61,365 nt of DNA from a virus. The notes below the pieces were generated by a model. The model was given only the letters and a program-made list of their open reading frames with translations, was not told where the DNA came from and did no database searches. Below are positions 35,056 through 51,544 of this stretch, in pieces (positions within the stretch are counted from its first letter, which is position 1; each line of letters begins with the position of its first letter). The stretch spans positions 1-61,365 of IMG/VR virus record IMGVR_UViG_3300037049_000148; one strand, given 5' to 3'. Made by a program: the position numbers and the translations under genes.

Positions 35056-35162
35056 TCCCGGCCCGCTGCCGCGGGCTTTGGCACTGCACACCATGAACTC
35101 TTGTTCACCCAGCACGCAAGATGCCTACGGCGCAGTTTTTGTGAACAGGGAAACCTGTATCC
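35056..35162 (+). ncRNA. Structured 5' leader, copy 1 of the recurring leader element
   Basis: The 34921-35186 gap has no credible ORF. It contains GCCCGC-TGCC-GCGGGC (35061-35076), then TGTTCAC (35102-35108) pairing with GTGAACA (35141-35147) around the conserved AGATGCCTACGGC core, then CAGG-GAAA-CCTG. Followed by AAAGG and the ATG at 35187. Confidence 0.55.
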
Positions 35163-35186
35163 CATTCCAACTGAAAGGCATTTGCC

Positions 35187-35534
35187 ATGTCCACCGAATA
35201 CCGCATTGTAGAAGCCAGTTTTGTTCCTGAGGTTCACGTCGTTGATGAAGGTACGTTGTTTGAAGAAGCTCAATTCATGGCTGATGAGCTCTCGCGTTCA
35301 TCTGGTCATGAGTGCTATCTCGAAGGCTATTGCAAAGTCCATGGTTGGACCCGTTGCTTCGGCGGCTACTGCGAAGAGTGCTGTGATGAGTACAACGAGG
35401 AGCGTATTCGTGCGCAGATGGATCATCTGGGAATTGATCCGGCTCGCGCTCTCGAAATGGCTACTCAAAGCGACAGTGTGTACGCAATCCCGAGCATCCG
35501 AGAACGTGACGATATGTGCTGGGATGAAGTGTGA
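35187..35534 (+). CDS. Cys-rich hypothetical early protein
   Basis: 115 residues. A cluster of six Cys and His (HECYLEGYCKVHGWTRC...CEECC, about 41-66) suggests metal binding. Acidic termini. The start is behind the leader-element hairpins. No family recognised. Confidence 0.65.
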   Translation: MSTEYRIVEASFVPEVHVVDEGTLFEEAQFMADELSRSSGHECYLEGYCKVHGWTRCFGGYCEECCDEYNEERIRAQMDHLGIDPARALEMATQSDSVYAIPSIRERDDMCWDEV

Positions 35535-35612
35535 CTTCTCCAGGCGAACCAGATGCCTAACGGCGTTTCGTTCGTTGAGCGTCTGCTCATATCCTACTCT
35601 GGAGAAGATCCA
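35535..35612 (+). ncRNA. Recurring leader element, copy 2, sequesters the ribosome site
   Basis: CTTCTCCAG (35535-35543) pairs with CTGGAGAAG (35599-35607), which contains the GGAG ribosome site. Inside are hairpin A, CGAAC/GTTCG (35545-35549/35570-35574) around GCC-TAAC-GGC, and hairpin B, TGAGC-GTCT-GCTCA (35576-35589). Confidence 0.65.
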
Positions 35613-35735
35613 ATGCGTAACTTAATTCCTGTAATTGTGCTTGTGCTTGCTCTCGTCGCTGTTTCCATCATTCTGCATCCAGTGTTCGTTATGCTGGCAG
35701 CCGGCTTCGACACGCTCAAGGCGTTCGGTGGATAG
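35613..35735 (+). CDS. Small single-TM membrane protein
   Basis: 40 residues. Nearly all of it is one hydrophobic helix (LIPVIVLVLALVAVSIILHP) with a short tail. Starts behind leader element copy 2, with GGAGAAG as ribosome site. Small membrane peptides in early phage regions often modulate host envelope functions. The role here is unknown. Confidence 0.6.
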   Translation: MRNLIPVIVLVLALVAVSIILHPVFVMLAAGFDTLKAFGG

Positions 35736-35738
35736 CAC

Positions 35739-36050
35739 ATGTGCAAAGTCATCAACATCCGAGATCGCAAATCTGGCGATGTGTATATCGGGCGCAAAGG
35801 GCATGGGGAAGACGGGTACTTTGGTAACCCGCATCCTATTGGGTGGTGCTCGATATGCAAAGTACATCACGATCGTGCTGGCTGTATTGCAGCATTCAAG
35901 CGCATGTTCTGGAAACGCATTCACGAAGATGCTGAGTATCTGCGGCGTGTGCGTGAACTTAAAGATAAGCGGTTGGTTTGCTTCTGCAAGCCGGAAGCCT
36001 GTCATGGGGATGTGATCGTTGACTGGTTTGCAGCCGGATGTCCATTGTGA
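35739..36050 (+). CDS. DUF4326 protein
   Basis: 103 residues. DVYIGRKGHGEDGYFGNPHPIG and the C-terminal LVCFCKPEACHGDVIVDW are the two signature blocks of DUF4326, a family common in phages and of unknown biochemistry. Conserved Cys and His suggest metal or nucleotide binding. Begins 3 nt after the small TM gene. Confidence 0.85.
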   Translation: MCKVINIRDRKSGDVYIGRKGHGEDGYFGNPHPIGWCSICKVHHDRAGCIAAFKRMFWKRIHEDAEYLRRVRELKDKRLVCFCKPEACHGDVIVDWFAAGCPL

Positions 36051-36126
36051 ATTGCGACGAAACAGATGCCTCACGGCGTTTGTTTCGTTGAGCTGCGGCT
36101 CGCATTTCAACCTATGGAGGTTTCGT
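36041..36126 (+). ncRNA. Recurring leader element, copy 3
   Basis: TCCAT (36041-36045) and TGAA (36048-36051) pair with ATGGA (36114-36118) and TTCA (36106-36109), covering the GGAGG ribosome site. Hairpin A is ACGAAACA/TGTTTCGT around GCC-TCAC-GGC, and hairpin B is GAGC-TGCG-GCTC. A second GTTTCGT lies against the start codon (36120-36126), giving an alternative partner for the 5' arm. Confidence 0.65.
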
Positions 36127-36480
36127 ATGAAACTGAAATCGTTTACTGATGTTGATCCTGTTTCCCCGCACACCGAAGCGTGCATCTTTGCTTCTGAGCG
36201 TGGGCAGTACAGCGCCGATACAACCGCGATCATGCTGGAAGCGTTGAATGCTTGCAGGAAGTATCGTCGCAAGCGCGTCCTGCACCTGGCGTTTACCCCT
36301 CAAGGTTACTTGTCCATCGTCATGATGGAAAAGGGGGAGCGATGCAACGTTCCGACGTTGGATACTTTGTCGATGACGCTCTACACCGAAGCCGACATTC
36401 GGGCAGCGTTTGAGTGGCTGCATCGGAAAAGTGGGATTTCGTATGTCGAGGGCATGCTCGATGGCAATTGCCCGTTCTAA
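36127..36480 (+). CDS. Hypothetical early protein
   Basis: 117 residues, ATG with GGAGG upstream in leader element copy 3. Mixed alpha/beta with a basic middle (CRKYRRKRVLHLAF). No known domain. Confidence 0.65.
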   Translation: MKLKSFTDVDPVSPHTEACIFASERGQYSADTTAIMLEALNACRKYRRKRVLHLAFTPQGYLSIVMMEKGERCNVPTLDTLSMTLYTEADIRAAFEWLHRKSGISYVEGMLDGNCPF

Positions 36481-36595
36481 ATCTGCGTGAAGAGAGAGAC
36501 GGGTCTATATCGTTCGCCCTTCTTTCTCTCTCATTACTCTCAAAAGTCCCAAATTCTGGCTCGAATTCACCTCAAAAAGGCTCAAAGGAGATCCA

Positions 36596-37024
36596 ATGAA
36601 AATCGATGTATTTTCCGACGGCGGGTGCAAAAATAATGGCCGTCCCGATGCGGAAATGTATGGCTCAGTCGCTGTGGATGTGAACGATAAGCCGCATTCC
36701 TTCCACTTTCAGGATCGGGAAATGGCGGTATTCCATCCTGACTTGAAAGACTTTGAGCATCAGACCAGCCCGATGGCCGAGATCATGAGCGCCTTTTATG
36801 CTCTCTTGTACATTGCTGAATTGCAGGCGCGCGGCAATAAAGAGCAGGTCGTGCTGCATACAGATTGCGAAGATGTCGTGGGGTGGCTTACGCAGAATTA
36901 CAAGATCAAAGCGCCTCATCTGCGCGAGCCGATCCTGAATGCAAGAAATCTTCTGGCTGGCCTGAACAATGTCAGGATCGTTCAGGAACCACGTGAAGTG
37001 CTACTGGCACGACTAGGCCATTAG
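36596..37024 (+). CDS. RNase H-like protein
   Basis: 142 residues. DVFSDGGCKNNG opens with the first catalytic Asp (D8), MAEIMSAFYALL supplies Glu62 and LHTDCEDVVGWL Asp90. The fourth acidic residue near the end is missing: the tail PREVLLARLGH aligns with the usual REENxLAD. Either weakened activity or a binding-only RNase H fold. Would remove RNA primers or cut RNA-DNA hybrids. 36481-36595 holds a purine/pyrimidine inverted repeat and no gene. Confidence 0.8.
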   Translation: MKIDVFSDGGCKNNGRPDAEMYGSVAVDVNDKPHSFHFQDREMAVFHPDLKDFEHQTSPMAEIMSAFYALLYIAELQARGNKEQVVLHTDCEDVVGWLTQNYKIKAPHLREPILNARNLLAGLNNVRIVQEPREVLLARLGH

Positions 37025-37050
37025 GCTCGTTCGTGCCGTATATGTGCCGA

Positions 37051-37079
37051 TTGACAAAACAGGGGGTTGGAATAATAAT
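37051..37079 (+). promoter_or_regulatory. Promoter for the SSB gene
   Basis: TTGACA (37051-37056), 17-nt spacer, AATAAT (37074-37079). Placed upstream of leader element copy 4 and the SSB gene. Confidence 0.65.
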
Positions 37080-37112
37080 AAGCCACTTGTAAGCTAACTG
37101 AATAAACCAAAA

Positions 37113-37157
37113 GAACCAGATGCCTTACGGCGTTTGGTTCATTGAGCGCAAGCTCAA
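37113..37157 (+). ncRNA. Recurring leader element, copy 4
   Basis: GAACCA (37113-37118) pairs with TGGTTC (37135-37140) around AGATGCCTTACGGCGTT, then TTGAGC-GCAA-GCTCAA (37142-37157). Followed by AGGAG and the SSB start. An outer helix is not clear in this copy. Confidence 0.65.
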
Positions 37158-37181
37158 AATCATTCTCAACAGGAGTATACA

Positions 37182-37655
37182 ATGCAAATCAAACTTTCCA
37201 ACGAAGACGCGATGGTGTCGGCCAAAGGTCACGTAACCCGTGCGCCGCGCTCGACCAAAAAGGAAGGCACCAATGTTGTCAACGTGCGTGTCGCTTTCGA
37301 TCGCTCGTGGACCAAGAAACAGAACGGCCAGGAAGTGATCGACGATAATGGACAGAAGGTCTGGGAGCGCAAAGGCAACATCATCGAGTTCGCGGTGTGG
37401 GGTCCGCAAGCCGACAAAGTGCGCACCATGAACATCCGCAAGGGCGCAGTGGTCGAAGTCACCTTCAGCCTGGCTGACCTGTTGGCCGAACGCTATCAGC
37501 CGGAAAACGGCGATGCTTACGAGAGCATCAAGACCAGCCACACCACGTCCCTGCGCTTGCTGGAAAACGGCAAGGACGACGGAACCAATGATGTCGGCGA
37601 TGCTCAGGCTGACATCCCGCTGGAAGAGCAGCCGGTCGCTGAAACCGTAATCTAA
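37182..37655 (+). CDS. ssb: Single-stranded DNA-binding protein
   Basis: 157 residues, OB-fold pattern: VSAKGHVTRAP, NVVNVRVAFDR, IIEFAVWG, VRTMNIRKGAVVEVTF. Acidic, disordered C-terminus (NDVGDAQADIPLEEQP...). Binds ssDNA during phage replication and recombination, with the Sak4-like ATPase and helicase as likely partners. Own promoter, leader element and terminator. Confidence 0.85.
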   Translation: MQIKLSNEDAMVSAKGHVTRAPRSTKKEGTNVVNVRVAFDRSWTKKQNGQEVIDDNGQKVWERKGNIIEFAVWGPQADKVRTMNIRKGAVVEVTFSLADLLAERYQPENGDAYESIKTSHTTSLRLLENGKDDGTNDVGDAQADIPLEEQPVAETVI

Positions 37656-37675
37656 CAATCGAATAGCTCGAACCC

Positions 37676-37706
37676 AAGCCCTGTGATGACCTCACGGGGC
37701 TTTTTC
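37676..37706 (+). terminator. Rho-independent terminator after ssb
   Basis: AAGCCCTGTGA pairs with TCACGGGGCTT (one G-T) around a 5-nt loop, followed by a T-run. Confidence 0.85.
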
Positions 37707-37724
37707 GTTTGAAAGGAGAACCCG

Positions 37725-39398
37725 ATGTACCCGATGCAAGTCACAGGCAGTTTGGTGGATGATGTCCACATTGGCGAAACTCCAATCGCCATTCTTCAAG
37801 CCAACAATTTCCTCAAGTGTGGAAACGATCCGTTGGTGTATTTCAGTGTGATTACCAAGACGTTGACTGATGCCGGTGTCACAAAGACGGTATGGGCTTC
37901 CACGGCCCGTCAGTTGCTCGGCAAGGCAGTCCTCGCTCTGGTCAATGCGGCCAGCCTGGAGATGGATCAGGCGGCAGCAGAGCGCAAGAAGGGGAATACC
38001 AAAGCGACCAAGCCGGCGGATCTGTATCGCAAATATTCGGCGGCTTTGCGCGCAGCAGCCGGATTGAAAGTGTCCAGCTCGCTCCTGGCAACCGAGACGC
38101 TCAGAGAGCTGTATCTGGAACAGACATTGGGGGACGGCGATCTCGAAACCGCCGATTACATAGACGCATACACTGGCGAGACCGAATTGACCTTCGAGCA
38201 ATTGATTGCCAGTCTACCAGAGCGCCATCCGATCAATAGCCGTGACGAAGGCGAGTTGAAGCTCCTGCAAATCATCTTCATGCCTGGAAAGGATGATGGA
38301 GATGGATTTGACGGCGTCGCCCCGATCATTTCCACTCCAGGCACGGAACTGGAGCGGCAGGCTGAACAATGCCGTGAACATCTCGGCTGGGATGACAATA
38401 CCGTCAAGGCTTTCCTGGCGGCCAACCGGCAGTTCATTGGCGGCGAAGATGAAGAAGAGCCGGGAGAAGACCGCGGCTTCGTTCCCGCAACCTTGCAAGA
38501 GCGCGAACTGGTCATTGATCGGCCAGCGTACTATCAAGCCATGAAACTAGTGGCAGCCTTCAACAAGCGTCGCAGTGAAATCTTCGAGCGCATGAAGATC
38601 CTGAAAATCAACCAGCAGAACTGGTACAAGGAATTCCGTATTGCGCTGACTGCCAGCGATGAATACACGGATTTGCTGAATGAAATCGAGCGCCTGGAAG
38701 CGGTGGACATCACAACGGCGGCAGCCGTGGCGCTCCTGGTCGCGACCACAGGATCATTGGAAGAAACCGGTGAAGATGTGATCGCGCAGGATGGGTACGG
38801 TTTGATCGCATCTGATTTCCGCCCAGGGCTGATCCAGTACATCGAAGCCTGGCAGGATGACCTGGTCGAGCTGATCAACGACTCCAGTCCGAACGGCGTG
38901 TTTCCGACAACGGAAAGCGACATTGAGCGTTACGATCAAGTAACGCTTCGGATGCTGGCGGAGAAAATGCCGGAGTATCACGTCAACCCAATGCAGACGC
39001 GCTCGTGGAATATGGCGTATTTGCAGGCGCTGGCGAACGGCGCGACATTCCAGGAAGCCGATGAGAGCGCATGGGCAGCCTGGCGCTTCGCAATGTCTTC
39101 GGAAGCAGCGGATGCTTACAACAAGGAATATCTGCGCACGAATGATCGCAAGCAAGCCATGCGCGCATTCTGGCAGAAGGCTCCGTTGTGCGTTCCTCGT
39201 CCGCAGGAACACATCAAAGCCATTCGTGGGGATAAGATGGGTTTGGTGCTGGTCGAGAAGGAACGCCGCATTGACTGGTGGGTCGCCACACGCAAGGCAA
39301 AGAACAACGAGTTGGCCTTGACCGAAGAGACCAAGACCAGGCTCAAGGCGGTTCTGGCGAACATTCCGCAAGCCAAAGAATTCCTGGCAGTCCTGTAA
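37725..39398 (+). CDS. Large early protein of unknown function
   Basis: 557 residues, ATG with AAAGGAG upstream, isolated between two strong terminators. Helical and acidic, with a poly-acidic stretch (GGEDEEEPGEDRG) near residue 245 and several long amphipathic helices. No ATP-binding, nuclease or HTH motif recognised. Its size and central place among replication genes suggest a core early function. Contains an exact dispersed palindrome at 38901, encoding FPTTE. Confidence 0.75.
   Translation: MYPMQVTGSLVDDVHIGETPIAILQANNFLKCGNDPLVYFSVITKTLTDAGVTKTVWASTARQLLGKAVLALVNAASLEMDQAAAERKKGNTKATKPADLYRKYSAALRAAAGLKVSSSLLATETLRELYLEQTLGDGDLETADYIDAYTGETELTFEQLIASLPERHPINSRDEGELKLLQIIFMPGKDDGDGFDGVAPIISTPGTELERQAEQCREHLGWDDNTVKAFLAANRQFIGGEDEEEPGEDRGFVPATLQERELVIDRPAYYQAMKLVAAFNKRRSEIFERMKILKINQQNWYKEFRIALTASDEYTDLLNEIERLEAVDITTAAAVALLVATTGSLEETGEDVIAQDGYGLIASDFRPGLIQYIEAWQDDLVELINDSSPNGVFPTTESDIERYDQVTLRMLAEKMPEYHVNPMQTRSWNMAYLQALANGATFQEADESAWAAWRFAMSSEAADAYNKEYLRTNDRKQAMRAFWQKAPLCVPRPQEHIKAIRGDKMGLVLVEKERRIDWWVATRKAKNNELALTEETKTRLKAVLANIPQAKEFLAVL
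38901..38916. repeat. Dispersed palindrome, exact copy
   Basis: TTTCCG-ACAA-CGGAAA in the 37725 gene. Confidence 0.85.
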
Positions 39399-39401
39399 TA
39401 C

Positions 39402-39438
39402 AAAAGGAGTAGGTGCGCAAGCACTTACTCCTTTTTTT
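39402..39438 (+). terminator. Strong rho-independent terminator
   Basis: AAAAGGAGTAGGTGC, GCAA loop, GCACTTACTCCTTTT, then more T. Marks the left edge of the second AT-rich island. Confidence 0.9.
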
Positions 39439-39452
39439 TGTGTGCCTCAAGG

Positions 39453-39480
39453 AACGCCACATGCCTGACGGCACTATTTT
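39453..39480 (+). ncRNA. Divergent leader-element-like hairpin
   Basis: CCACATGCCTGACGGCACTATTTTTGG carries GCC-TGAC-GGC and a short outer CCA/TGG. Weak copy of the recurring element, with no nearby plus-strand start codon. Confidence 0.3.
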
Positions 39481-39499
39481 TGGTAACTATAAATTCTTA

Positions 39500-39733
39500 C
39501 TATATCAAATCTTCTGGTTTGTAGACCGCGGGATGTTTGATCTTCTTGCGTCTTTTATTTTCTTCTTTCATAGTGTAATTCTCCAGTTTTTTCCATTCAA
39601 GAGTTGATTCAAAGTCTTCAACTCTTAATCCTGCAATGGGGTGCTTAGATTTTATAATATCTTTGTTTGCTTTGAATAAAAGATGTACAAACTCACCACA
39701 ATAATATTTAGGGTAACTATATACCTGACGCAT
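39500..39733 (-). CDS. Small hypothetical protein
   Basis: 77 residues, basic C-terminal half (KEENKRRKKIKHPAVYKPEDL). ATG at 39733 with a weak AAGAAA upstream. The amino-acid composition looks natural and the AT-rich codon use fits the island. No family recognised. Divergent from the protease gene. Confidence 0.45.
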   Translation of the reverse strand: MRQVYSYPKYYCGEFVHLLFKANKDIIKSKHPIAGLRVEDFESTLEWKKLENYTMKEENKRRKKIKHPAVYKPEDLI

Positions 39734-39766
39734 GAAAGCAATTTCTTCGCATAGCGGGGGGGTAAA

Positions 39767-40597
39767 ATGACATGTAAAAATCTGTGCCTTGAAAACGTCA
39801 TTATGGCTAAAAATAATTTGTGTAATTTAATCAATGAATTTATTGATACAATATTGCACATGACAAATAAATTTCGGGTTGGAGATATTGTTTATGTATC
39901 AAGATCGAGGGCGAGACTTGATATAAATGCTCCATCAGCATTATATAGGTCTGAGATTGTTGAAATCAGAAATCGTTCTGCTAAGATCAAGCTTCTTGAA
40001 GATGTTTCTAGTTTTATACCAACATCTGCATTAGTAAAACGGCTGGGGATATTGGTTTTGAAAATCGGTGATTTTGAGAGTGAAGATAGTCTTCTTAATC
40101 CTCTAAGGGAATCTTTACGCCATTATTTTAGTTTATTGCTCTCAGAGGGAGAAGTCTTATATTGGGATGTTAGAAGTTTAGATGAACTAAGCCGATTTTG
40201 GAAGACGCAAAATAATCATAATGCTATAACTCATGTCATACTTGTTGGTCACGGAAAATCTAATTCGATAAAATTTGGAGATACATGGAAATTATCTAAA
40301 GAGATCAATGATATTTTGAATTTGGATGGAGTGTTTCCAAAACAATTTATATCTTTGTGCTGTGAAACTGGGATCGCTAACTTTGGCAAGATGTTTTCTC
40401 AACTTCCTGTTTGCGAGTCATTGATAGCTCCTTTTCAAAGTATACATGGATCAATAGCATCTCAATTCTGTCAAACTTATTTCAACTATTTATTGTTGCA
40501 AGGTAAAACTTCTGGAGTTTCTTTCAAAAAAGCACGAGATGCCACACCAAACGCTACAAGTTTTCGCAGATGGAAAAACGGAAAATTGATAAGTTAA
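39767..40597 (+). CDS. CHAT/caspase-like cysteine protease with SH3-like N-terminal domain
   Basis: 276 residues. The C-terminal half has a strand ending in VILVGHGKSNSIKFGD (His162) and ISLCCETGIANFGKMF (Cys198-199, ETG), then LIAPFQSIHGSIASQF and the helical FNYLLLQGKTSGVSFKKA. This is the His-Cys dyad order of CHAT/metacaspase-like peptidases (HG...ACETG). Residues 36-80 resemble a small KOW/SH3-like barrel (FRVGDIVYVSRSRA). CHAT proteases act in bacterial abortive defence. Here it sits in an AT-rich phage island with no obvious sensor. ATG 39767 follows GGGGGG. Starts at 39803 or 39860 are possible. Confidence 0.7.
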   Translation: MTCKNLCLENVIMAKNNLCNLINEFIDTILHMTNKFRVGDIVYVSRSRARLDINAPSALYRSEIVEIRNRSAKIKLLEDVSSFIPTSALVKRLGILVLKIGDFESEDSLLNPLRESLRHYFSLLLSEGEVLYWDVRSLDELSRFWKTQNNHNAITHVILVGHGKSNSIKFGDTWKLSKEINDILNLDGVFPKQFISLCCETGIANFGKMFSQLPVCESLIAPFQSIHGSIASQFCQTYFNYLLLQGKTSGVSFKKARDATPNATSFRRWKNGKLIS

Positions 40598-40606
40598 AAT
40601 TGGGAG

Positions 40607-40831
40607 ATGAAATTAAAACTCACGGGTTTTCTAGTTGCCAATGTTGCTATGCCAATAATTGTTGGGGGATTTATGAATAGCCTTCTTACTTCTCAACATC
40701 TTGACCGCTATCTTGCAGAATTTGATTATCGTTATAATACTCGTGGCGAGAAAGACGGAATAAGAATGATAGAAGCAATCAAGAAATCGAATGGTAAAAG
40801 ATTGCAATATAAGGAATTGATTGCCGGATAG
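40607..40831 (+). pseudogene. IS1595-type transposase, C-terminal fragment
   Basis: 74 residues. From residue 24 the sequence NSLLTSQHLDRYLAEFDYRYNTR...GKRLQYKELI matches the conserved end of IS1595-family transposases (LDRYLxEFxFRYNxR and a terminal YKELI). The preceding 23 residues do not. The N-terminal counterpart is at 4958-5440, about 35 kb away. Together they lack most of the DDE domain. Confidence 0.75.
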
Positions 40832-40858
40832 CATCGGAAAGTAGCATTAAAAGAAGTG

Positions 40859-40930
40859 TGCCGCAGATGAGATTTGAACTCACATCCATAAACTTAGTAG
40901 GTTTCCGCTCCTCCCTTGAGCTACTGCGGC
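40859..40930 (-). tRNA. tRNA with ACU anticodon (identity uncertain)
   Basis: Minus strand folds as a canonical cloverleaf: acceptor GCCGCAG/CTGCGGC, D stem GCTC/GAGC, anticodon stem GAAAC/GTTTA (one mismatch at 27-43), loop CTACTAA, 5-nt variable region, T arm GTGAG-TTCAAAT-CTCAT. Anticodon ACU would read AGU (Ser), but there is no long variable arm, so the charging identity is doubtful. The CCA is not fully encoded (ACAC follows). Confidence 0.75.
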
Positions 40931-40960
40931 ACACTCATATTCTAGCACTAGGATAAAATT

Positions 40961-41128
40961 ATGGCAGAAACAAAGAAGAAAGTAAAAAAGAAGGTTGTCA
41001 AGAAAAGAAGTAGCAAATACAATAAAAAGATTTCTCTTTATGGCATGGATGAAAAAGATGTTTTGAAAGAGTTATTGAAATCGCCCCCTATTCCAAGCGG
41101 AGAGATCAAGGATAAAAACAAGGAATAA
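40961..41128 (+). CDS. Small lysine-rich protein
   Basis: 55 residues between the two tRNA-like genes. The first 23 residues are dominated by Lys and Arg (AETKKKVKKKVVKKRSSKY), then an acidic helix and a Pro-rich tail. Could bind nucleic acid. ATG preceded by AGGATAAAATT. No family. Confidence 0.5.
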   Translation: MAETKKKVKKKVVKKRSSKYNKKISLYGMDEKDVLKELLKSPPIPSGEIKDKNKE

Positions 41129-41132
41129 ATCT

Positions 41133-41270
41133 ATGAAAAGAATTGGTAGAGGAGTTGCGAGAAATGTGGCAAAAGCCAGCGTCAAAAACGATAATTGTAT
41201 GGTATTGATTGTTGTTATGATTTCGCTCTTATTATTGTTTGTTTGTATAGTAAATGCACTAGCAAGATAA
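41133..41270 (+). CDS. Small single-TM protein
   Basis: 45 residues: basic amphipathic N-terminus and a strong TM helix (CMVLIVVMISLLLLFVCIV). Starts 4 nt after the 40961 stop, with AAGGA (inside the previous gene end) as ribosome site. The pair may form a small operon. Confidence 0.55.
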   Translation: MKRIGRGVARNVAKASVKNDNCMVLIVVMISLLLLFVCIVNALAR

Positions 41271-41322
41271 TATTAAGCGAGTATCATCTAATAATAGAAT
41301 AAGACTTATCTTACAAGTATGC

Positions 41323-41406
41323 CGATGAAAGCCCGATTTGAACCATTGAAGGTTTTTCACCCTCAACAGATGCTCAGTCTATCCCATTAAGTCCATTCCT
41401 CTCATC
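41323..41406 (-). tRNA. tRNA-Leu-like gene (GAG), degenerate T arm
   Basis: Minus strand: acceptor GATGAGA/TTTCATC (one G-U), anticodon stem ATAGA/TCTGT with loop CTGAGCA (anticodon GAG), and a long class-II variable arm TGAGGG-N7-CCTTCA typical of tRNA-Leu. The TTCAAAT T loop is present but its stem pairs poorly, and the D arm is irregular. Functional tRNA, tRNA-like element or decaying gene. Confidence 0.45.
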
Positions 41407-41443
41407 TTTCCGATTTTATTTTAACAAGAAAGTTAATAACGAT

Positions 41444-42802: not shown

Positions 42803-42818
42803 AAATGACAGCCCATTT

Positions 42819-44236: not shown

Positions 44237-44238
44237 AT

Positions 44239-44661: not shown

Positions 44662-44672
44662 CTGGCGTCACC

Positions 44673-44701
44673 TTGACAAACTGGAATAGTTAAGTTACAT
44701 T
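44673..44701 (+). promoter_or_regulatory. Promoter of the large noncoding RNA, with CTGGAATAGTT spacer element
   Basis: TTGACA (44673-44678), 17-nt spacer containing CTGGAATAGTT, TACATT (44696-44701). Nearly identical to the promoter at 43697. An 8-bp perfect inverted repeat GTTACATT-TGT-AATGTAAC (44694-44712) overlaps the -10 and start point. Confidence 0.85.
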
Positions 44702-44712
44702 TGTAATGTAAC
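44694..44712. repeat. Inverted repeat over the ncRNA start point
   Basis: GTTACATT-TGT-AATGTAAC. Operator-like placement. Absent at the sister promoter 43697. Confidence 0.7.
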
Positions 44713-45189
44713 ACTTGAACCTTAACAACCGACGACCAATAGTAGAGACATGGATTGAAAGCAATTTCAATCCATGTCTCTGCCGAGGGCAGACATTTCT
44801 TCTCCTTTCTGATGCAGCCTGCGGGCTGCTCGATCCGCTGTGATGTCGGGTTGCAGTGGGTCAGGCGCAGTGGGTGCGCCACACGGAACTCCAGGTGGGC
44901 GACCACCTGGAGGACTCCGTCCGGATTAGGTATCAAACTTAAGTTGATAAGTACGTGGCACGACCTGTAGCAACGCGCACGCATTCCTGTACTAATTGTG
45001 ACCGAGTGACATAAGATGACGCATGCGTGTGGACGTGGACGGCGATATATCGCCGGGCACTGGAGGGACGCCTTCAGTGCCGAATACGCAAATCAAGCAG
45101 AGTACGTGAAAAGTCGCCTCTCATTCGAGACCCTACCCCTTGTGCGACGCTCTGCTCGCGATGGGAGCCGCAAATGGCTCCCATCAAAG
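44713..45189 (+). ncRNA. Ornate large noncoding RNA (ROOL/GOLLD-like candidate)
   Basis: About 480 nt with no credible ORF but almost continuous base pairing. Helices: 17-bp stem with GCAA loop (44744-44781), GCAGCC-TGCG-GGCTGC (44814-44829), GATCCGCTG with CAGTGGGTC (44832-44862), GGCGCA/TGCGCC (44864-44880), ACGGA/TCCGT enclosing TCCAGGTGG-GCGA-CCACCTGGA (44883-44920), TATCAA/TTGATA (44931-44949), CGCACGCAT/ATGCGTGTG (44976-45031), GGCGATATATCGCC (45041-45054), GGCACTG/CAGTGCC (45056-45081), nested GCAGAG/CTCTGC and GTCGC/GCGAC (45097-45155), and a 10-bp stem (45160-45185). Own promoter. Class assignment is inferred from size, style and phage context. Confidence 0.75.
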
Positions 45190-45205
45190 TTTCTGACAAC
45201 GGAAA
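45190..45205. repeat. Dispersed palindrome, one mismatch, overlapping a ribosome site
   Basis: TTTCTG-ACAA-CGGAAA. Its right arm merges with the GGAAAGG ribosome site of the 45212 gene. Confidence 0.65.
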
Positions 45206-45211
45206 GGCATT

Positions 45212-45451
45212 ATGGATCTGACCAAAGCGCGCGATGAAGAACATCTTGCCACGGTCATCACGTTGACCATTGGGGATGGCGAGATGGAAAAGATGCTGTT
45301 CACGGAAACGGAAAGGAAAGCCATCGCGGAAGGACTGGCCTCCGACAAGATCTCCACCAACCTGCATGCCTTGAGAGTGATCGCGATGAAGGCGGAGAAA
45401 ATGGCGAAGGCCATGCGAAGGCTGGCAAGGCTGCCAGGCAGACTTCATTGA
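45212..45451 (+). CDS. Small helical protein
   Basis: 79 residues, starting right after the ncRNA and a dispersed palindrome. Acidic N-terminal half, basic helical C-terminus (ALRVIAMKAEKMAKAMRRLARL). No family. Could be a partner of the adjacent RNA, by position only. Confidence 0.6.
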   Translation: MDLTKARDEEHLATVITLTIGDGEMEKMLFTETERKAIAEGLASDKISTNLHALRVIAMKAEKMAKAMRRLARLPGRLH

Positions 45452-45497
45452 GCCACTGGTTGAAGCACAGCCTATCATGCAGTACAATGGAGACGCC

Positions 45498-45782
45498 ATG
45501 AGACACACTCACGCACTCATCAAGATCCGATTGCTTCGCCGTCTCTATGCAGAAGAGCTCGAAGCTATGCGAATACATACGCCCATTGCCGATCGACGAT
45601 CAGAGTTATTCGTCGGAACGTGCTTTGGGCTGGAAAGTGGATTTTGGAAAATGCAGAGGAGCTTATTATGGCGCAATCTAAAATTCAAACCTACGATCAA
45701 TACATCGAACTTCAAAACGCAGTGGATGAAGCTAAAGAAAGATTGGACGGCGCTGGTGCAAGCGGTGCGCACTATCTTCTAA
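45498..45782 (+). CDS. Hypothetical basic protein, partly overlapping the next gene
   Basis: 94 residues, ATG with TGGAGAC upstream. The N-terminal 55 residues look natural (basic helix IKIRLLRRLYAEELEAMRI). The last 40 or so overlap the 45668 gene in another frame by 115 nt. Real but overlapping, or a shorter gene that lost its stop. Confidence 0.4.
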   Translation: MRHTHALIKIRLLRRLYAEELEAMRIHTPIADRRSELFVGTCFGLESGFWKMQRSLLWRNLKFKPTINTSNFKTQWMKLKKDWTALVQAVRTIF

Positions 45783-45886
45783 ACAATATTCTGCGCCGAT
45801 ACGGTGTGTTCGGGATGTCCAGGGAGGAAACAATAAAGCTAGGACAAAATCTCTGTAATGAGTTCTTGAAAAACAGACCAGATTGA
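45668..45886 (+). CDS. Small hypothetical protein
   Basis: 72 residues, ATG with AGAGGAG upstream. All-helical (YIELQNAVDEAKERL...SREETIKLGQNLCNEFL). No family. Last gene before the structured endolysin leader. Confidence 0.65.
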   Translation: MAQSKIQTYDQYIELQNAVDEAKERLDGAGASGAHYLLNNILRRYGVFGMSREETIKLGQNLCNEFLKNRPD

Positions 45887-45888
45887 GA

Positions 45889-45952
45889 CAGGGCGGCTTA
45901 GACGCCTGCCCTGCTAAACGGGCCGCGAAGAACGGCTCCAGCTTGGACCCGT
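45889..45952 (+). ncRNA. Structured 5' leader of the endolysin gene
   Basis: Hairpin CAGGGC-GGC...GCC-T-GCCCTG (45889-45913), then a three-way junction: ACGGG (45918-45922) with CCCGT (45948-45952) enclosing GCCG-N7-CGGC and TCCA-GCT-TGGA. The 150-nt gap 45887-46040 contains no ORF. May delay or control endolysin translation. Confidence 0.5.
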
Positions 45953-46040
45953 GCCAAGTAGACTTACCGCGTCGAATAGTCAGGATGGTAGGTGAAATTT
46001 CCACTGGATCTATCTGAGTTCCATCTTTATCAGGAGAACC

Positions 46041-46940
46041 ATGCCAGCTTATCAGTTGAAGAAAAATATTGGGTACGACTTTTATTCCGAGGAAATGCCG
46101 ATCGATCTGACGAAGGCGGATCCCAAGCCGGGCTTCGTGGTCGCAAAGGCCAGCCAGGGGAAGTGCGATAAAGATCGTTCGATCTCGCTCCTGGCGATTG
46201 CCAAACAGTTGGGCATCTTCCGCGGAGCCTATCACTTCTTCGAGTTGAACGATGTCACGCCGCAGGTCCAGAATTATCTGGAACAGATGGCGAGCATTGG
46301 CGAACTGGTCAATCTGACCCGCGATGGAACCGGAGCGATCATCAAAGGGACATGGCTGCCTGAAATGGAGCCGATCCTGGACCTTGAGTACGAGCCTCCG
46401 GTCAAGCCCTTTGGGATGTCCCAATCCAAATACAACAACCTGTATCCCACCGGCGATCCGGTTGCGTATCAGGTCAAGTTCTGGCTCAACGTCGTGGAAG
46501 GCGTCACCGGATTAAAGCCGATGATCTATTCCTCGGTGCACTTCCTATCATTTATTGCCAACGCTCAAGGCAACCTGCCGGCCTGGCTGAATGACTATCG
46601 TCACTGGTCTGCCGGGTATCTCAAGTCCATGTACGTGGACAACTATCCAACCATTCCAACGGTCTATAACTTCCCTGGCGCAGGAGCATCCGATCTCTGG
46701 CAATATGCAGACGACGGGCGTTCTCAAGGATGGTTCTTGAATGATCTCAACACTGCAAGCGATGGATATATGGCTGTGCTTGCGGCGCGTTCGGCTCCAG
46801 TACCTGTGCCGGCTCCGACACTACCTCTACCGCAACCGCCAGCGGCACCTGATGTCAGTGTATCCATTTCTTCCGTCACGGTGGGTTATATCGTAACCGT
46901 CAACGGTGTGGCTCAGCCGGTTCAAACGATCACCAAATAA
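46041..46940 (+). CDS. GH25 lysozyme endolysin
   Basis: 299 residues, ATG with AGGAGA upstream. GYDFYSEEM (Asp13), FVVAKASQG, FRGAYHFFE and PILDLEYEPP (Asp114, Glu116) are the GH25 muramidase signature. A Pro-rich linker (about 253-276) leads to a small beta C-terminal segment that may bind the wall. Cleaves peptidoglycan glycan strands for lysis after holin (33750) opens the membrane. No signal peptide, consistent with holin-dependent release. Confidence 0.9.
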   Translation: MPAYQLKKNIGYDFYSEEMPIDLTKADPKPGFVVAKASQGKCDKDRSISLLAIAKQLGIFRGAYHFFELNDVTPQVQNYLEQMASIGELVNLTRDGTGAIIKGTWLPEMEPILDLEYEPPVKPFGMSQSKYNNLYPTGDPVAYQVKFWLNVVEGVTGLKPMIYSSVHFLSFIANAQGNLPAWLNDYRHWSAGYLKSMYVDNYPTIPTVYNFPGAGASDLWQYADDGRSQGWFLNDLNTASDGYMAVLAARSAPVPVPAPTLPLPQPPAAPDVSVSISSVTVGYIVTVNGVAQPVQTITK

Positions 46941-47027
46941 TCCGCGGATCGTAACCGCGCTTTGCGTCCGTCGCCTGGCAAAGTGGCGAGACCGGCAGGC
47001 TCCTGCTCACCACGTAGTGGAGGCAAC

Positions 47028-47630
47028 ATGAACGTCACCAACGATCTCATTCCTCTGGACCAACTGCTTGCCTATCTGATCGACCCGCACCACTGCCCAT
47101 ATTGTGGAAATAAAAATATCCACTATGAGGAGCATCAATTGCCCAATTCGTATGTCCAATGCGGAAAATGCGGGCGGACTTTCGTGGAAGTGTGGAAACT
47201 GGTCGGCGTCAACGATCAACACGCCCCGACGAGTTTTGTCCAAACCCTGCTTTCCCTCGAAAGACTGCGCGGCAGTCAGATTACCTGGCGAGCGGCGTTA
47301 TCTCCCAGTGAAATGCTGGAATTCGCTGAAGGCAGCGCACTGCCCTTGCAGCGAGCCCTCGTTCGGGACATCGATGCTCTCATTCCGCCGGCATACTTTG
47401 GGCCGCGCTGCCTGAACAATGGCCGGCAGCATCATGTCTATGAAGTCGGCATGGAACTCAGCCGCGTTCTCTATGTGAATGTATATAAGAACTACATCGT
47501 CAATTGGAACAACCTGAGTAGCGTGCTGGCGAAGCAGCTAGACCAAATCGCAAAGCTATATAAAGCCGACGAACACGGAGTCGTCACGGACGACGCCGGC
47601 AAGTTTTCGTTCCGCTTCTGGTGGGATTAG
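47028..47630 (+). CDS. Zinc-ribbon protein
   Basis: 200 residues from ATG 47028 (GGAGG upstream). An upstream in-frame start at 46962 lies in the structured gap. CPYCGNKNIHYEE...VQCGKCGRTF (about 24-50) is a clear CxxC-CxxC ribbon. The remaining 150 residues are mixed alpha/beta and unrecognised. Possibly DNA- or RNA-binding. Confidence 0.7.
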   Translation: MNVTNDLIPLDQLLAYLIDPHHCPYCGNKNIHYEEHQLPNSYVQCGKCGRTFVEVWKLVGVNDQHAPTSFVQTLLSLERLRGSQITWRAALSPSEMLEFAEGSALPLQRALVRDIDALIPPAYFGPRCLNNGRQHHVYEVGMELSRVLYVNVYKNYIVNWNNLSSVLAKQLDQIAKLYKADEHGVVTDDAGKFSFRFWWD

Positions 47631-47631
47631 T

Positions 47632-48039
47632 ATGCACACAAAACGAAATGCGATCCTGGTATTGATTCTAGGGACGGCAGGTGCGTCCCTGATTATCTTC
47701 ACCACTTATATCTGGATGGGTATCCTGCTGGCGATCCTGGCGGTGACCATTCTTTCCGGGGCATTGTTCAGGCTCAAGCCCATGCAAACCGGGAAACCCG
47801 CCGAGGCTCCAGGCAGGTACTTCTATCTCTGCGACGAGGCGTTCATTGGGGAAATCGTGGAAGATGACACGCTGATCATTTACCGTGACGGGCGTCCCAT
47901 TGTGTCCGCCACGCTCGAAGAGCTTCGCAAAGAGATCGAAGAAGCGGCCAAAGACTTTATGTATCCATTTACTTATCGCAGGTTATGGAAAGAAAGCCTT
48001 CAACTGCTGGAAGCAAATCTCAACGGCGAGCTTCCATAA
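47632..48039 (+). CDS. Two-TM membrane protein
   Basis: 135 residues, 1-nt gap to the previous gene. Helices AILVLILGTAGASLIIFTTY and IWMGILLAILAVTILSGALF form a hairpin (about 7-48), followed by a soluble acidic helical tail. A GC-rich inverted repeat ACTGGGCAGG/CCTGCCCAGT follows its stop. Confidence 0.65.
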   Translation: MHTKRNAILVLILGTAGASLIIFTTYIWMGILLAILAVTILSGALFRLKPMQTGKPAEAPGRYFYLCDEAFIGEIVEDDTLIIYRDGRPIVSATLEELRKEIEEAAKDFMYPFTYRRLWKESLQLLEANLNGELP

Positions 48040-48051
48040 CGACTGGGCAGG

Positions 48052-48654
48052 TCAATCGGCCTGCCCAGTGGGTTCTTCCGGTGTCGCCGGAGCGACTTCG
48101 ATCACCTCGCCATCATGGATGGGTGTGCCTGGAGAGAGGAACTTGCTGAAGGCTTCCCGGAATTCCTGCGGCACATTGATCTGAATAAGGTTGAGATTGC
48201 CTTCCACTCTAACGCCGTTACGCTGAAGGAAACTGGTCAGCGTGGCCGGATCATCGTTCCCATCGTTTTCCGTGAGCCTGGTCCAATCAAACAGCTTCTC
48301 GATGGCGCGCATGGCGACACGGTCATCGCTTTGCGGATTGGACAAAATGGTCCTCAGTCTGCGGTATGCCATGGGGAGCAGGTCTCCCAGGTTGGATGTA
48401 ATAGCGGCCAGGCGGGGATCATGTCCCACCGTGGAAAGCGCGTTCTGATAAACCGAATTGAACTCCGTGGTCTGCGTCAGCCGCTTGAGCGAAGCCAGGC
48501 TCATCTCCAGAGCGTCGGCGATCTCCTTCCAGGTATGGTCGTGCTGCAAGTCAAGGAACAGGGCGACCGCCTGCTCGATCTTTTGCTGCTTCGCCAGGTC
48601 GGCTCGTTCCGCGATGGTGAGATTGATGTGTCGTACAGCGGGGGTATCGGTCAT
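48052..48654 (-). CDS. Terminase small subunit-like HTH protein
   Basis: 200 residues, the only minus-strand gene between 43765 and 53100. ATG with GGAAGGA upstream. An HTH (WKEIADALEMSLASLKRL, about 42-59) is followed by a helical region (YRRLRTILSNPQ...AMRAIEKLFDWTRLTE) that resembles phage small terminase oligomerisation helices. If real, it is 16 kb away from the large subunit. It could alternatively be a transcription regulator of the Ubl cassette next door. Confidence 0.6.
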   Translation of the reverse strand: MTDTPAVRHINLTIAERADLAKQQKIEQAVALFLDLQHDHTWKEIADALEMSLASLKRLTQTTEFNSVYQNALSTVGHDPRLAAITSNLGDLLPMAYRRLRTILSNPQSDDRVAMRAIEKLFDWTRLTENDGNDDPATLTSFLQRNGVRVEGNLNLIQINVPQEFREAFSKFLSPGTPIHDGEVIEVAPATPEEPTGQAD

Positions 48655-48701
48655 TGAATTCCTTCCAGATGCCTTTCGGCGCTGGTTTCATTGTAATTCA
48701 A
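48654..48701. ncRNA. Recurring leader element, copy 5
   Basis: TTGAATT (48654-48660) pairs with AATTCAA (48695-48701) around CCAG...CTGG and GCC-TTTC-GGC. Read on the minus strand it lies directly upstream of the 48052 gene and has a GAAA loop. Confidence 0.6.
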
Positions 48702-48726
48702 AACGGAATAATTGTACATCATATGC

Positions 48727-48755
48727 TTGACAACTATTCCAAACCCGCGTATACT
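48727..48755 (+). promoter_or_regulatory. Promoter of the Ubl gene
   Basis: TTGACA (48727-48732), 17-nt spacer, TATACT (48750-48755). The spacer holds AACTATTCCA, the reverse complement of the TGGAATAGTT element in three other promoters. Confidence 0.85.
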
Positions 48756-48780
48756 GCGGATATTCCAATTGGAGGCTCTA

Positions 48781-49146
48781 ATGACAGACCAGTTTGATCC
48801 AACTCTCGGCGATGAAACCAGCGACACCGCGGCTCCCGTGCCTGGGAACGATATGAATACGTCCGAGCCGGAGATGCCGGAAGACACCGGGGATGAGAAT
48901 TTCCTCGAAGACAATCACATCGATCCCGCAACCATCGTCACCATCCTGACCAGCGGGGCGGAACCGCGGTACATCCCGGTGAACGAACCCGCCGCGTTGC
49001 GCGATTTGGTTGTCCGCGCCAACCTGACCTACAGCGGCCAGGTGGATGCGTATGTGGACGGTAATTCGATCTCCTTCGAGACGTTGGTGTCTGGCGGGCA
49101 GACCGTCACGTTGATCGGCAACGTCAAAGGAGGCAGCGTAGCCTAG
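48781..49146 (+). CDS. Ubiquitin-like modifier (beta-grasp, C-terminal GG)
   Basis: 121 residues, ATG with TTGGAGG upstream. An acidic, disordered first 48 residues precede a beta-grasp core (TIVTILTSGAEPRYIPV...LRDLVVRANL...VDAYVDG...FETLVSGGQTVTLIGNVKGG). The diglycine at 117-118 is followed by SVA, so a protease must trim three residues to expose it. This is the layout of ubiquitin/SAMP/PRTRC-C type modifiers. Own strong promoter and terminator suggest high expression relative to the enzymes. Confidence 0.82.
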   Translation: MTDQFDPTLGDETSDTAAPVPGNDMNTSEPEMPEDTGDENFLEDNHIDPATIVTILTSGAEPRYIPVNEPAALRDLVVRANLTYSGQVDAYVDGNSISFETLVSGGQTVTLIGNVKGGSVA

Positions 49147-49164
49147 GGCAATCCCTTGACTACG

Positions 49165-49180
49165 TTTCCGATGCCAGAAA
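49165..49180. repeat. Dispersed palindrome, one mismatch
   Basis: TTTCCG-ATGC-CAGAAA, directly before the Ubl terminator. Confidence 0.6.
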
Positions 49181-49205
49181 CCCAGGCAGCTAACGCCTGG
49201 GTTTT
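49178..49205 (+). terminator. Terminator after the Ubl gene
   Basis: AAACCCAGGC, 7-nt loop, GCCTGGGTTTT. Separates the modifier gene from the enzyme genes. Confidence 0.85.
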
Positions 49206-49223
49206 CGTTCCCCGGAGGCTCTC

Positions 49224-49904
49224 ATGGCAATCAAAATCATCCAGCGTGCGGCGGTGGATCCCAAATTCATGGAATGCGTCCTGAACATCTACAGGGCGTT
49301 CATGATGAGGGAGAAGGAACGTGCAGCCGAGTATCCCGCCGGCGCCAAAGAATACATCAAGAAACGCGCACCGGCTCATGCCCGCATCCTGGCTATCACC
49401 ACAGTCGGTCACTCTCAAGGACGCGTCGGCGCGGAGTATGAACTCACCCGGCTGCGCGTGCTTCCTTACGAAAAGTTCATGACCGTCGCGCACAAAGGCG
49501 CCGACGGCAAATTAAAGAAATACCTGGTCGGCGTTACCAAGCCGGTTGTGATCAAAGACAACGGGAAAACCTATTTCCTGGGCCCGTATGCGATCTATGT
49601 TCCTGCGGATGCGTTTGACGCGCAGAACAGCGGATCGTTCCATTTCATCCCCACCAAGTTCCCGCAATCCAACTTGCGCCATCCGCACCATGTTGTAAAG
49701 AACAACCCGCAAGGCATGCACCCCCTGGACAAGCATGCTTCGACGTGCTGGGGCGGTTTTGGTCCGGCCATTCGCGTACTGCTGGATATTCCGGACATCC
49801 CGGAACTCTTCCGGCTTTTGCAGATGTATGTCAGCCGGTATGACGCAGGCTCTGTGTTGTCGTTCATTCGCAACCTCGATTTTCCCACAACGGAGGAAGC
49901 ATGA
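49224..49904 (+). CDS. E2-like ubiquitin-conjugating domain protein
   Basis: 226 residues, ATG with CGGAGG upstream. The segment FIPTKFPQSNLRHPHHVV (141-158) followed by STCWGGFGPAI (173-183) matches the bacterial E2/UBC-like core, with Cys175 as the expected thioester residue. The region before it (MTVAHKG...LVGVTKPVVI...GPYAIYVP) gives the E2 beta-sheet. It would receive the modifier from the E1-like protein (50584) and pass it to a target. No E3 is visible. Confidence 0.72.
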   Translation: MAIKIIQRAAVDPKFMECVLNIYRAFMMREKERAAEYPAGAKEYIKKRAPAHARILAITTVGHSQGRVGAEYELTRLRVLPYEKFMTVAHKGADGKLKKYLVGVTKPVVIKDNGKTYFLGPYAIYVPADAFDAQNSGSFHFIPTKFPQSNLRHPHHVVKNNPQGMHPLDKHASTCWGGFGPAIRVLLDIPDIPELFRLLQMYVSRYDAGSVLSFIRNLDFPTTEEA

Positions 49905-50587
49905 AGATCGTCCTTGACCCGCTGGTCATGCTGAAGCTGGAGACCTATGCCAGCCAGACCCGCAATGAATTCTCCGGCTTCGGCTTCGTGGATCTCGACC
50001 GTGAGCATCAGATCTTCCATGTATATGACGTGGTCATCCTGGACGTGGGCACCTATACATGGACCGAGATCCCATCCAGGAAGATCCTGGAGGTCATACA
50101 GCGTCCGGATGCCCGCAAGATGAAGTTATGGTTCCATCGGCATCCAATGGGAAACGGGATTCCCGGGATGCACAACTGGTCCGGCACGGACGACAACACC
50201 TGCCGCAGGGAGCCTCTTGGAAATTCCATGCCTGAACTGGTCGGCTGGTCCATTTCCATTGTCCGCACTCCACTGGGGTGGGTGGGTCGTTATGACACGT
50301 ATGGCCCAAATGGAGCCACAGCGCATTTGAACGTTGAACCGTCCTTCGCACTCGAGGCCTCGCGGAATATCTTCGAGCTGATTTCCGAGCATTCCAATCG
50401 CCGCGGTGGTCTGTCCGAAATGGAAAACGACTGGGACGATGATCCTGACGCATATCTCGGCCTGGACGGAGATGACGATCTCGACGAGGAAGAAGAAGGA
50501 AGCTGGGATGACGAGGACGAGGAAGACGTCGTTCAAACCTCGTTTCTCGGCGGCATGCTCAACAGGTTCCATGGAGGCAAACGATGA
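49901..50587 (+). CDS. JAB/MPN (JAMM) metalloprotease, deubiquitinase-like
   Basis: 228 residues, ATGA overlap with the E2-like gene. Glu23 (NEFSGFG), WFHRHPMG (His79, His81) and NWSGTDD (Ser94, Asp97) form the JAMM zinc site, with a slightly long spacing between HxH and S..D. A strongly acidic C-terminal tail (about 178-212) may hold the basic partner or target. Likely tasks: trimming SVA from the modifier or removing it from targets. Confidence 0.88.
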   Translation: MKIVLDPLVMLKLETYASQTRNEFSGFGFVDLDREHQIFHVYDVVILDVGTYTWTEIPSRKILEVIQRPDARKMKLWFHRHPMGNGIPGMHNWSGTDDNTCRREPLGNSMPELVGWSISIVRTPLGWVGRYDTYGPNGATAHLNVEPSFALEASRNIFELISEHSNRRGGLSEMENDWDDDPDAYLGLDGDDDLDEEEEGSWDDEDEEDVVQTSFLGGMLNRFHGGKR

Positions 50588-51246
50588 ACCATGTAAGACA
50601 CCAGAATATCTACAACATCCCTACGGGCTTTAGCGCCACGGTCATCGGCGCCGGAGGGATCGGCGCGATCACCGCGCTCATGCTGGCGAAGATGGGCGTT
50701 CGAGCAATTGCCATGTACGACGACGACACGGTCAGCGAAGAGAACATCGCAACGCAATTGCATAAAGTATCCGATATCGGAAAGCCAAAGGTGATGGCGC
50801 TTGGCGCGACCCTGATGGAATATTCCGATGATGTGTTCCCGTTCGGGCACGAAGAACGGATCGGTCCCGATAGCGAACTGCGTTCCACGCTGGTCATCTC
50901 CGCGGTCGACAGCATCCTCGCTCGCCAGCAAATCTGGATTGCGCTATGCAACCCCAATAGCCGCTGGTCTTTTTACCTTGATGCGCGAATGGGAGCTATG
51001 GAATATCAACATTTCCTGGTTCCCAATAAGGTTGAAAACGCCGATGCGTATAGTCATCATCTCATGAGCATAACGGATGATAGTGTCCCGGATGCTCCTT
51101 GCACCGAGAAGGCCACGTTCTTCACAGCAGCAATTGCCGCTGGTCATATAGGAAACACCGTCCGCGAGATCGCTCAAGGCGTTGCCAAGCCACACCGGTT
51201 GGTCCACAACATCCCCAATTACTGGCTCCAAACATTCTCCTTGTAA
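50584..51246 (+). CDS. E1-like (ThiF/MoeB) adenylating enzyme
   Basis: 220 residues, ATGA overlap with the JAB gene. Rossmann ATP site VIGAGGIGA (20-28), MYDDDTVSEENIATQ (44-58), and Cys173 in DAPCTEKATFF as the candidate thioester Cys. Short, like minimal MoeB/ThiF proteins, with no extra domains. Would adenylate the modifier C-terminus and hand it to the E2-like protein. Confidence 0.88.
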   Translation: MNHVRHQNIYNIPTGFSATVIGAGGIGAITALMLAKMGVRAIAMYDDDTVSEENIATQLHKVSDIGKPKVMALGATLMEYSDDVFPFGHEERIGPDSELRSTLVISAVDSILARQQIWIALCNPNSRWSFYLDARMGAMEYQHFLVPNKVENADAYSHHLMSITDDSVPDAPCTEKATFFTAAIAAGHIGNTVREIAQGVAKPHRLVHNIPNYWLQTFSL

Positions 51247-51292
51247 TCCATCACCAGGCGCCTAACGGCGCTTTGGTGATTTGGAGGTCACC
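51247..51292 (+). ncRNA. Recurring leader element, copy 6, switch-like
   Basis: ATCACCA (51250-51256) pairs with TGGTGAT (51274-51280) around GCGCC-TAAC-GGCGC. The same TGGTGA can instead pair with TCACCA (51288-51293), which overlaps the start codon and brackets the GGAGG ribosome site. TCCA/TGGA gives an outer contact. Confidence 0.65.
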
Positions 51293-51544
51293 ATGTTATC
51301 TGTTCACGCGATCAATTCCACGACCTTGAGAGTACAGATCAAGCGGCCTCGTTTTCAAGATGATCTTGCCCGCTTCAAGACTGCCATCGCTCCCGAAGAT
51401 CGATCGTATGACTATGTTCGCGAAGAGTGGACGGTCATCCATGCAGACCGATATAAATTTATTGACTGGGTCTTTCGGGCGCTGGAAGCGATCCGCCCTG
51501 CCAGGCCTAATGAAATCAAGCTCACGCAGGCGACGCTATGGTGA
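51293..51544 (+). CDS. Small protein before primase
   Basis: 83 residues, GGAGG seven bases upstream inside leader element copy 6. The pattern FKTAI...YDYVREEWTVIHADRY resembles the short HARP/SNF2-associated substrate-binding fold (F...ip...WxVp), tentative. Overlaps the primase start by 7 nt. Confidence 0.6.
   Translation: MLSVHAINSTTLRVQIKRPRFQDDLARFKTAIAPEDRSYDYVREEWTVIHADRYKFIDWVFRALEAIRPARPNEIKLTQATLW

Follow-up and report, generated by a model that had tools for sequence, protein, structure and literature searches.

Recurring intercistronic hairpins that combine a favoured tetraloop with differing stems, the CUUCGG hairpins, are known from phage T4. In the com/mom system of phage Mu, which includes the zinc finger protein Com, translation is controlled by the structure of the mRNA (PMC6483171). 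T4-type phages also carry promoter early stem-loops (PeSLs; Arbiol 2010; Comeau 2014), which are promoter-terminator composites in the account given by PMC4503421, and the boxB RNA of phage phi21 presents a UMAC-type, GNRA-like loop and is bound by N peptide (PMC12550061). Here, we describe a hairpin module that recurs in IMG/VR virus record IMGVR_UViG_3300037049_000148 (61,365 bases, the window in the following) and in three related phages, referred to as L021, L126 and G740. The module, named after its first hairpin, hp1, is a new, previously undescribed RNA family to which these four systems are the nearest in kind, and it very probably controls the use of the genes behind it. The whole comparison covers four phages, of which one is represented by a 6 kb fragment and another by a partial prophage.

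The T4 CUUCGG hairpins resemble hp1 in being recurrent and intercistronic, with a preferred tetraloop on unlike stems. In hp1, however, the conservation extends to a stem grip, often to a second hairpin, and to the spacing from the start codon, and the loops are UNAC (copies 2, 3, 4 and 6) or, in copy 5 on the minus strand, GNRA. With Mu com/mom, the module shares a phage mRNA hairpin near the ribosome site and a translational control that is demonstrated in Mu and predicted for hp1, and the leader clusters of the window, of L021 and of G740 encode small Cys-rich proteins. By contrast, Mu has a single target whereas one hairpin is common to many leaders here, and the Cys-rich proteins display no detectable link to Com, that of the window having no Pfam family. 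The PeSLs, as far as the cited account describes them, likewise recur as regulatory stem-loops between the small early genes of a single phage, but the hp1 module holds neither promoter nor terminator and its hairpin faces the ribosome site. Instead of the early promoter and terminator stem-loop that accompany each PeSL, a promoter match is found only 5' of copy 4, outside the module, and no terminator lies within it; none of the terminator-like sites (a G+C-rich hairpin followed by a T run) coincides with hp1 of copies 1–4 or 6. The phi21 boxB also places a GNRA-like, UMAC-type loop on a hairpin of a phage early transcript, but hp1 has many copies per genome, a fixed start-codon spacing and a conserved stem grip, and its loop is not strictly kept. 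Apart from tRNAs (in the window, L021, L126 and L134), no Rfam 15 family reached the gathering threshold, and relaxed Rfam scans of two leader clusters returned chance-level matches only.

Structure of the hp1 module

In the layout of the module, hp1 comes a few bases after a stop codon and is often followed by a second hairpin, with the Shine-Dalgarno sequence and the start codon last. hp1 is a hairpin of 12–16 pairs whose outer arms vary between copies with the pairing maintained. Its inner part reads CAGAUGCC-UNAC-GGCGUUUG in the window and L021, and CAGUGCC-UGAC/UUAC-GGCAUUG in G740, where the stem is one pair shorter on both sides. The conserved inner grip is CAG-A-UGCC...GGC-G-UUUG, with fixed G.U pairs. 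The features of the window are as follows.

35119–35158, + strand: copy 1, core AGATGCC-UAC-GGCG (three-base loop subtype), second hairpin ACAGG-GAAA-CCUGU
35187–35534, + strand: Cys-rich open reading frame (ORF) of 115 amino acids (aa), with copy 1 as its leader
35535–35607, + strand: predicted closing stem of copy 2, CUUCUCCAG (35535–35543) with CUGGAGAAG (35599–35607), masking the Shine-Dalgarno sequence of ORF 35613–35735
35543–35589, + strand: copy 2, hp1 at 35543–35576 with loop UAAC at 35558–35561, second hairpin at 35576–35589
36055–36101, + strand: copy 3, hp1 at 36055–36090 with loop UCAC, second hairpin GAGC/GCUC at 36090–36101, leader of ORF 36127–36480
37051–37079, + strand: sigma-70-like promoter 5' of copy 4, TTGACA-17-AATAAT, 11/12 consensus match
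37113–37157, + strand: copy 4, hp1 at 37113–37140 with loop UUAC, second hairpin UUGAGC/GCUCAA at 37142–37157, leader of the SSB gene (37182–37655)
39457–39476, + strand: degenerate sequence, CATGCC-UGAC-GGCA, that may be a seventh copy; it follows the terminator of the gene for a 557-aa protein and is outside leader position
48665–48685, − strand: copy 5, CCAGCGCC-GAAA-GGCAUCUGG, leader hairpin of the 200-aa gene 48052–48654
51249–51280, + strand: copy 6, hp1 with loop UAAC at 51263–51266, no second hairpin, leader of ORF 51293–51544 and the primase

A first-pass annotation of the window had listed six copies, and the six cores are found where it placed them, starting at 35119, 35551, 36064, 37118, 48667 and 51256. 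With up to 3 mismatches, AGATGCCTNACGGCG occurs 14 times in the window (three exact) against 5.67 expected, a count reached in none of 100 shuffles. The second hairpin is present in copies 1–4, and copies 1–4 and 6 lie 5' of + strand start codons. The stems of the second hairpin differ (GAGC/GCUC, GAGUA/UACUC, ACAGG/CCUGU and ACAGAG/CUCUGU). Each accepted copy lies on the sense strand 5' of a start codon, within a narrow range of spacings. The loop precedes the start codon by 51–55 nucleotides (nt) in copies 2–4 of both the window and L021, by 25–26 nt in copy 6, and by 39–53 nt in 7 of the 9 G740 copies. The loop starts 16–30 nt past the preceding stop codon in 12 of the 13 intercistronic copies, which places the first base of hp1 no more than about 10 nt behind the stop. 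UNAC is found in copies 2, 3, 4 and 6 and in most relatives, the exceptions being UUUC, three-base loops and an insert. The latter is an identical 37-nt sequence that replaces the tetraloop in two G740 copies (L140 1677–1735 and 2658–2716) with retention of the stem grip, and its core occurs nowhere else in the G740 genome than in those two leaders.

To avoid circularity, a held-out profile was trained on window copies 2–4 only. It detects the L021 counterparts of copy 3 (E 9e-13), copy 2 (E 5e-9) and copy 4 (E 8e-8), whereas the best match in reversed sequence has an E of 0.24. The covariation score is 0.344 versus 0.151 shuffled for eight copies, and 0.505 versus 0.223 shuffled for 12 copies from three phages, with none of 500 shuffles as high. 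In the 12-copy alignment 89.8% of cells pair, compared with at most 45.1% when the partners are slid, a comparison in which the structure is favoured through its derivation from these same sequences and in which related copies are not independent. RNAalifold recovers hp1 unaided, and 6 of its 13 pairs show double changes. The annotated arms do pair, and the proposal of a conserved RNA structure with compensatory arms is borne out by the covariation test and RNAalifold. G.U outnumbers A.C by 30:1 in the sense reading of hp1, implying that the selected molecule is the sense-strand RNA, and minus-strand readings score far lower in model searches. The folding z-scores versus shuffles are −5.8, −4.4, −5.1 and −3.9 for copies 2, 3, 4 and 6, respectively, which thus fold far better than shuffles, but only −1.7 and −1.5 for copies 1 and 5.

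These last two copies also depart from their initial description. The arms proposed for copy 1 are absent from its two relatives, and its loop has three bases (UAC or UCC), which makes it a variant subtype. Its core and the ACAG..CUGU hairpin recur at the equivalent place in L021 (7193) and 5' of DUF4326 in L126, and covariance model R2 detects copy 1 of the window and of L021 in register but weakly. Copy 5 had been taken for a + strand leader. It is a weak match to the + strand models. Its + reading sits upstream of a strong promoter match, ahead of the −35 box of the + strand gene (48727), and the proposed outer arm TTGAATT/AATTCAA is not kept in L021. Copy 5 is in leader position only for the minus-strand gene 48052–48654; in that reading, the loop is GAAA, GAAA and GCAA in three phages, and the GNRA loop and leader position are kept in L021 and G740.

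Among the remaining copies, the 5' strand of the copy 2 closing stem starts immediately behind the upstream stop codon (35534) in the window and a short way behind it in L021, where the stem is predicted as AUCUCCUG/CAGGAGAU, with two compensatory pairs relative to the window. Copy 4 is preceded by an 11/12 promoter match, and hp1 there would thus be near the mRNA 5' end; L021 has a similar TTGACA...AATAAT stretch at the equivalent place, and the SSB leader of G740 likewise has a UUAC loop. In copy 6, a GGAGG Shine-Dalgarno sequence follows immediately 3' of hp1, and the stem of its L021 counterpart is altered yet still pairs. At the place of the possible seventh copy, L021 reads GATGCC-UGAC-GGCA (R1 17.2 bits, E 0.067; held-out model E 0.038).

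Related phages and distribution

The window is a temperate tailed phage that encodes terminase, portal, major head and tail proteins and an integrase, in addition to DnaB, a dnaG-like primase and SSB. It is identical to IMGVR_UViG_3300048760_000055 over 17 kb, and over 11 kb it matches, at 99.7% identity, a contig from the bin of an Anaerolineae metagenome-assembled genome (isolate fen_1038); the host of the phage is an Anaerolineae bacterium. Among GenBank phages, the terminase, primase, 557-aa and JAB proteins of the window had no relatives. L021 (IMGVR_UViG_3300014839_001411) is a divergent relative found through the 557-aa protein adjoining SSB (67% aa identity for that protein), and counterparts of copies 1 to 6 are all present in it at equivalent genes. 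A terminase search (57% identity) revealed the third phage, L126 (IMGVR_UViG_3300035659_002896), in which a copy-1-type leader lies immediately 5' of a DUF4326 gene. Model R2 located a further leader cluster on G740:C15, a contig of an Anaerolineae genome. The start of this contig is a partial prophage of the same kind, followed by chromosomal genes, with homologs of the 557-aa protein, the copy-5 gene, the E2-like, JAB and ThiF genes and the integrase. Its nine leaders lie on one strand within 4.7 kb, in front of DUF4326, NADAR and SSB genes and small ORFs. The integrases at window 53103–54080 (minus) and about 25246–26151 (minus) of G740:C15 are related (35% identity), indicating that both phages are temperate.

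The claim that the element is phage-specific stands as far as searched: in genome scans of Anaerolineae and wider groups it is confined to one phage group, and the trusted copies in bacterial genomes are phage-derived only. No further trusted match was found in the genomes sampled (R1 at class, R2 at order, and R3 at phylum and family level), these being limited samples in which absence is unproven. No copy is present in the relative L125 or in G301, a phage that is syntenic but further removed. Several matches were set aside. Exact-pattern matches in IMG/VR outside this phage group look like chance and have no paired arms. The R1 matches in Anaerolineae genomes (L047–L057, E about 1e-4) deviate in loop or grip where aligned, and L048, examined in context, lies outside leader position. 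Four R2 matches (L131, L132, L135 and L136) resemble two-way terminators, and L133 is a hairpin 5' of an unrelated membrane-protein gene. In G402, a weak terminal match is a short inverted repeat that stands alone.

Possible roles of the module

The reading that we favour, with about an even chance of being right, is a shared translational operator. In this model, hp1 would be a common operator and cis-acting leader of early and accessory genes in a group of temperate Anaerolineae phages. One trans-acting RNA-binding factor, encoded by phage or host, would recognise hp1 and set ribosome access to these genes jointly, and the second hairpin and local Shine-Dalgarno pairing would tune each gene individually. 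A conserved grip within varying arms, many leaders per phage and their retention despite gene divergence are what a common binding factor would leave, which argues for the operator; the SSB leader, for instance, is kept though SSB itself has diverged (35% identity). In these phages, the Shine-Dalgarno sequence is less accessible in leader genes (mean unpaired 0.24) than in the remaining genes (0.41; p = 0.008, related copies pooled). In copy 2, the closing stem would mask the Shine-Dalgarno sequence, and terminating ribosomes would open it, its 5' strand being right behind the upstream stop codon; this predicted arrangement suggests translational coupling. The first-pass annotation had an upstream strand pair with the Shine-Dalgarno sequence in copies 2, 3 and 6. 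Such pairing is predicted in all three, and is conserved in L021 for copy 2 alone.

Several points weigh against the operator. The trans-acting factor and its effect on expression, both part of the translational control proposed originally, are what we infer from sequence; translation is the likeliest level of control because the hairpins lie directly upstream of ribosome sites. In copies 2–4, hp1 stops some 35 nt short of the start codon, on the margin of a ribosome footprint. The loops vary (UNAC, UUUC, three bases and the 37-nt insert of two G740 copies), which makes a loop-reading factor unlikely, and the partners that mask the Shine-Dalgarno sequence differ from copy to copy.

Next in rank is a hairpin for stability, processing or insulation, which would guard each early cistron after upstream cleavage or stop ribosomes from drifting past the stop codon with no dedicated binding factor. 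The strong folds, the start of hp1 so close to the upstream stop, the position of copy 4 near a predicted mRNA 5' end and the tolerance of the loop to change all agree with this possibility, which we hold to be clearly less probable than the operator: a mere barrier needs no common inner sequence with G.U pairs across phages whose shared proteins are only 42–45% identical. Were hp1 a boxB-like antitermination site, a phage peptide would read it with its GNRA-like loop and RNA polymerase would then ignore terminators. UAAC and UCAC do fit the GNRA-like UMAC pattern, of which one loop occurs in phi21 boxB RNA, and the copies are located in early operons, but there are up to nine of them, each tied to a ribosome site and not to promoters or terminators, and the loop is at times replaced by an insert or three bases. 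Visual inspection of the aligned copies revealed no boxA-like sequence adjoining hp1, and no systematic search was made for a cognate arginine-rich peptide. We consider antitermination improbable.

A role mainly in recombination, with repeats that shuffle small accessory genes as proposed for T4 PeSLs and regulation secondary, would account for the set of small ORFs behind the copies changing between phages and for the inner core being near-identical among copies of one phage. It is unlikely, as neither selection on pairing nor a sense-strand G.U bias is expected from it, and the outer arms are unlike between copies. A DNA-level palindrome (a protein operator or cruciform) or chance similarity has very little to recommend it. 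The form is palindromic and copy 5 lies in a divergent promoter region, but the 30:1 ratio, the far lower minus-strand scores, the held-out E-values and the covariation controls all speak against either. A riboswitch was dropped on inference, as the hairpins are simple and the genes behind them unrelated.

The shared operator can be extended to a phage-wide post-transcriptional regulon, in which a single factor would recognise the grip of hp1 in all copies and jointly switch a set of early and accessory genes at the level of the ribosome, while further genes would enter the regulon by acquiring a leader; we propose this tentatively, as the less probable, stronger form. By analogy with Mu Com, the Cys-rich product of 35187, its L021 ortholog and a zinc-ribbon-like small G740 protein are speculative candidates for the binding factor.

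Neighbouring genes and significance

The genes behind and around the leaders display further features. Very small hydrophobic, membrane-like ORFs lie behind leaders in three phages (window 35613–35735, 40 aa; L021 7720, 36 aa; L140 1008, 26 aa). In G740:C15, the DUF4326 and NADAR genes are adjacent (L134 1369–2164) with one leader copy each, which hints at an NAD/ADP-ribose-related accessory set. The 557-aa protein (window 37725–39398) has only a sub-threshold Pfam match (Phenol_Hydrox, E 5e-4); it adjoins SSB also in L021 and has distant homologs in G740 and G301. Window 48781–51246 is a cassette with a ThiF/E1-like protein (50584; NCBIfam matches include PRTRC-type ThiF), whose neighbours are read, with no family match, as ubiquitin-like, E2-like and JAB-like, and which is syntenic in L021 and G740. 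ARAGORN predicts a tRNA-Ser at window 40858–40930 (minus) with anticodon ACU, the A34 being unusual. L021 carries a phage tRNA (13894–14027; Rfam tRNA 45.3 bits over 134 nt) with an insertion of ~60 nt after the anticodon arm. The window phage encodes an RtcB-type RNA ligase (55663–56889) with a possible tie to tRNA splicing or repair.

RNA regulons with many targets have seldom been observed in phages. The one proposed here can be recognised purely from the sequences of four phages, and the phages of their host group have hardly been studied. A structured RNA family absent from Rfam is thereby added. The leader is short and modular, and it offers a direct route to its proposed RNA-binding factor.

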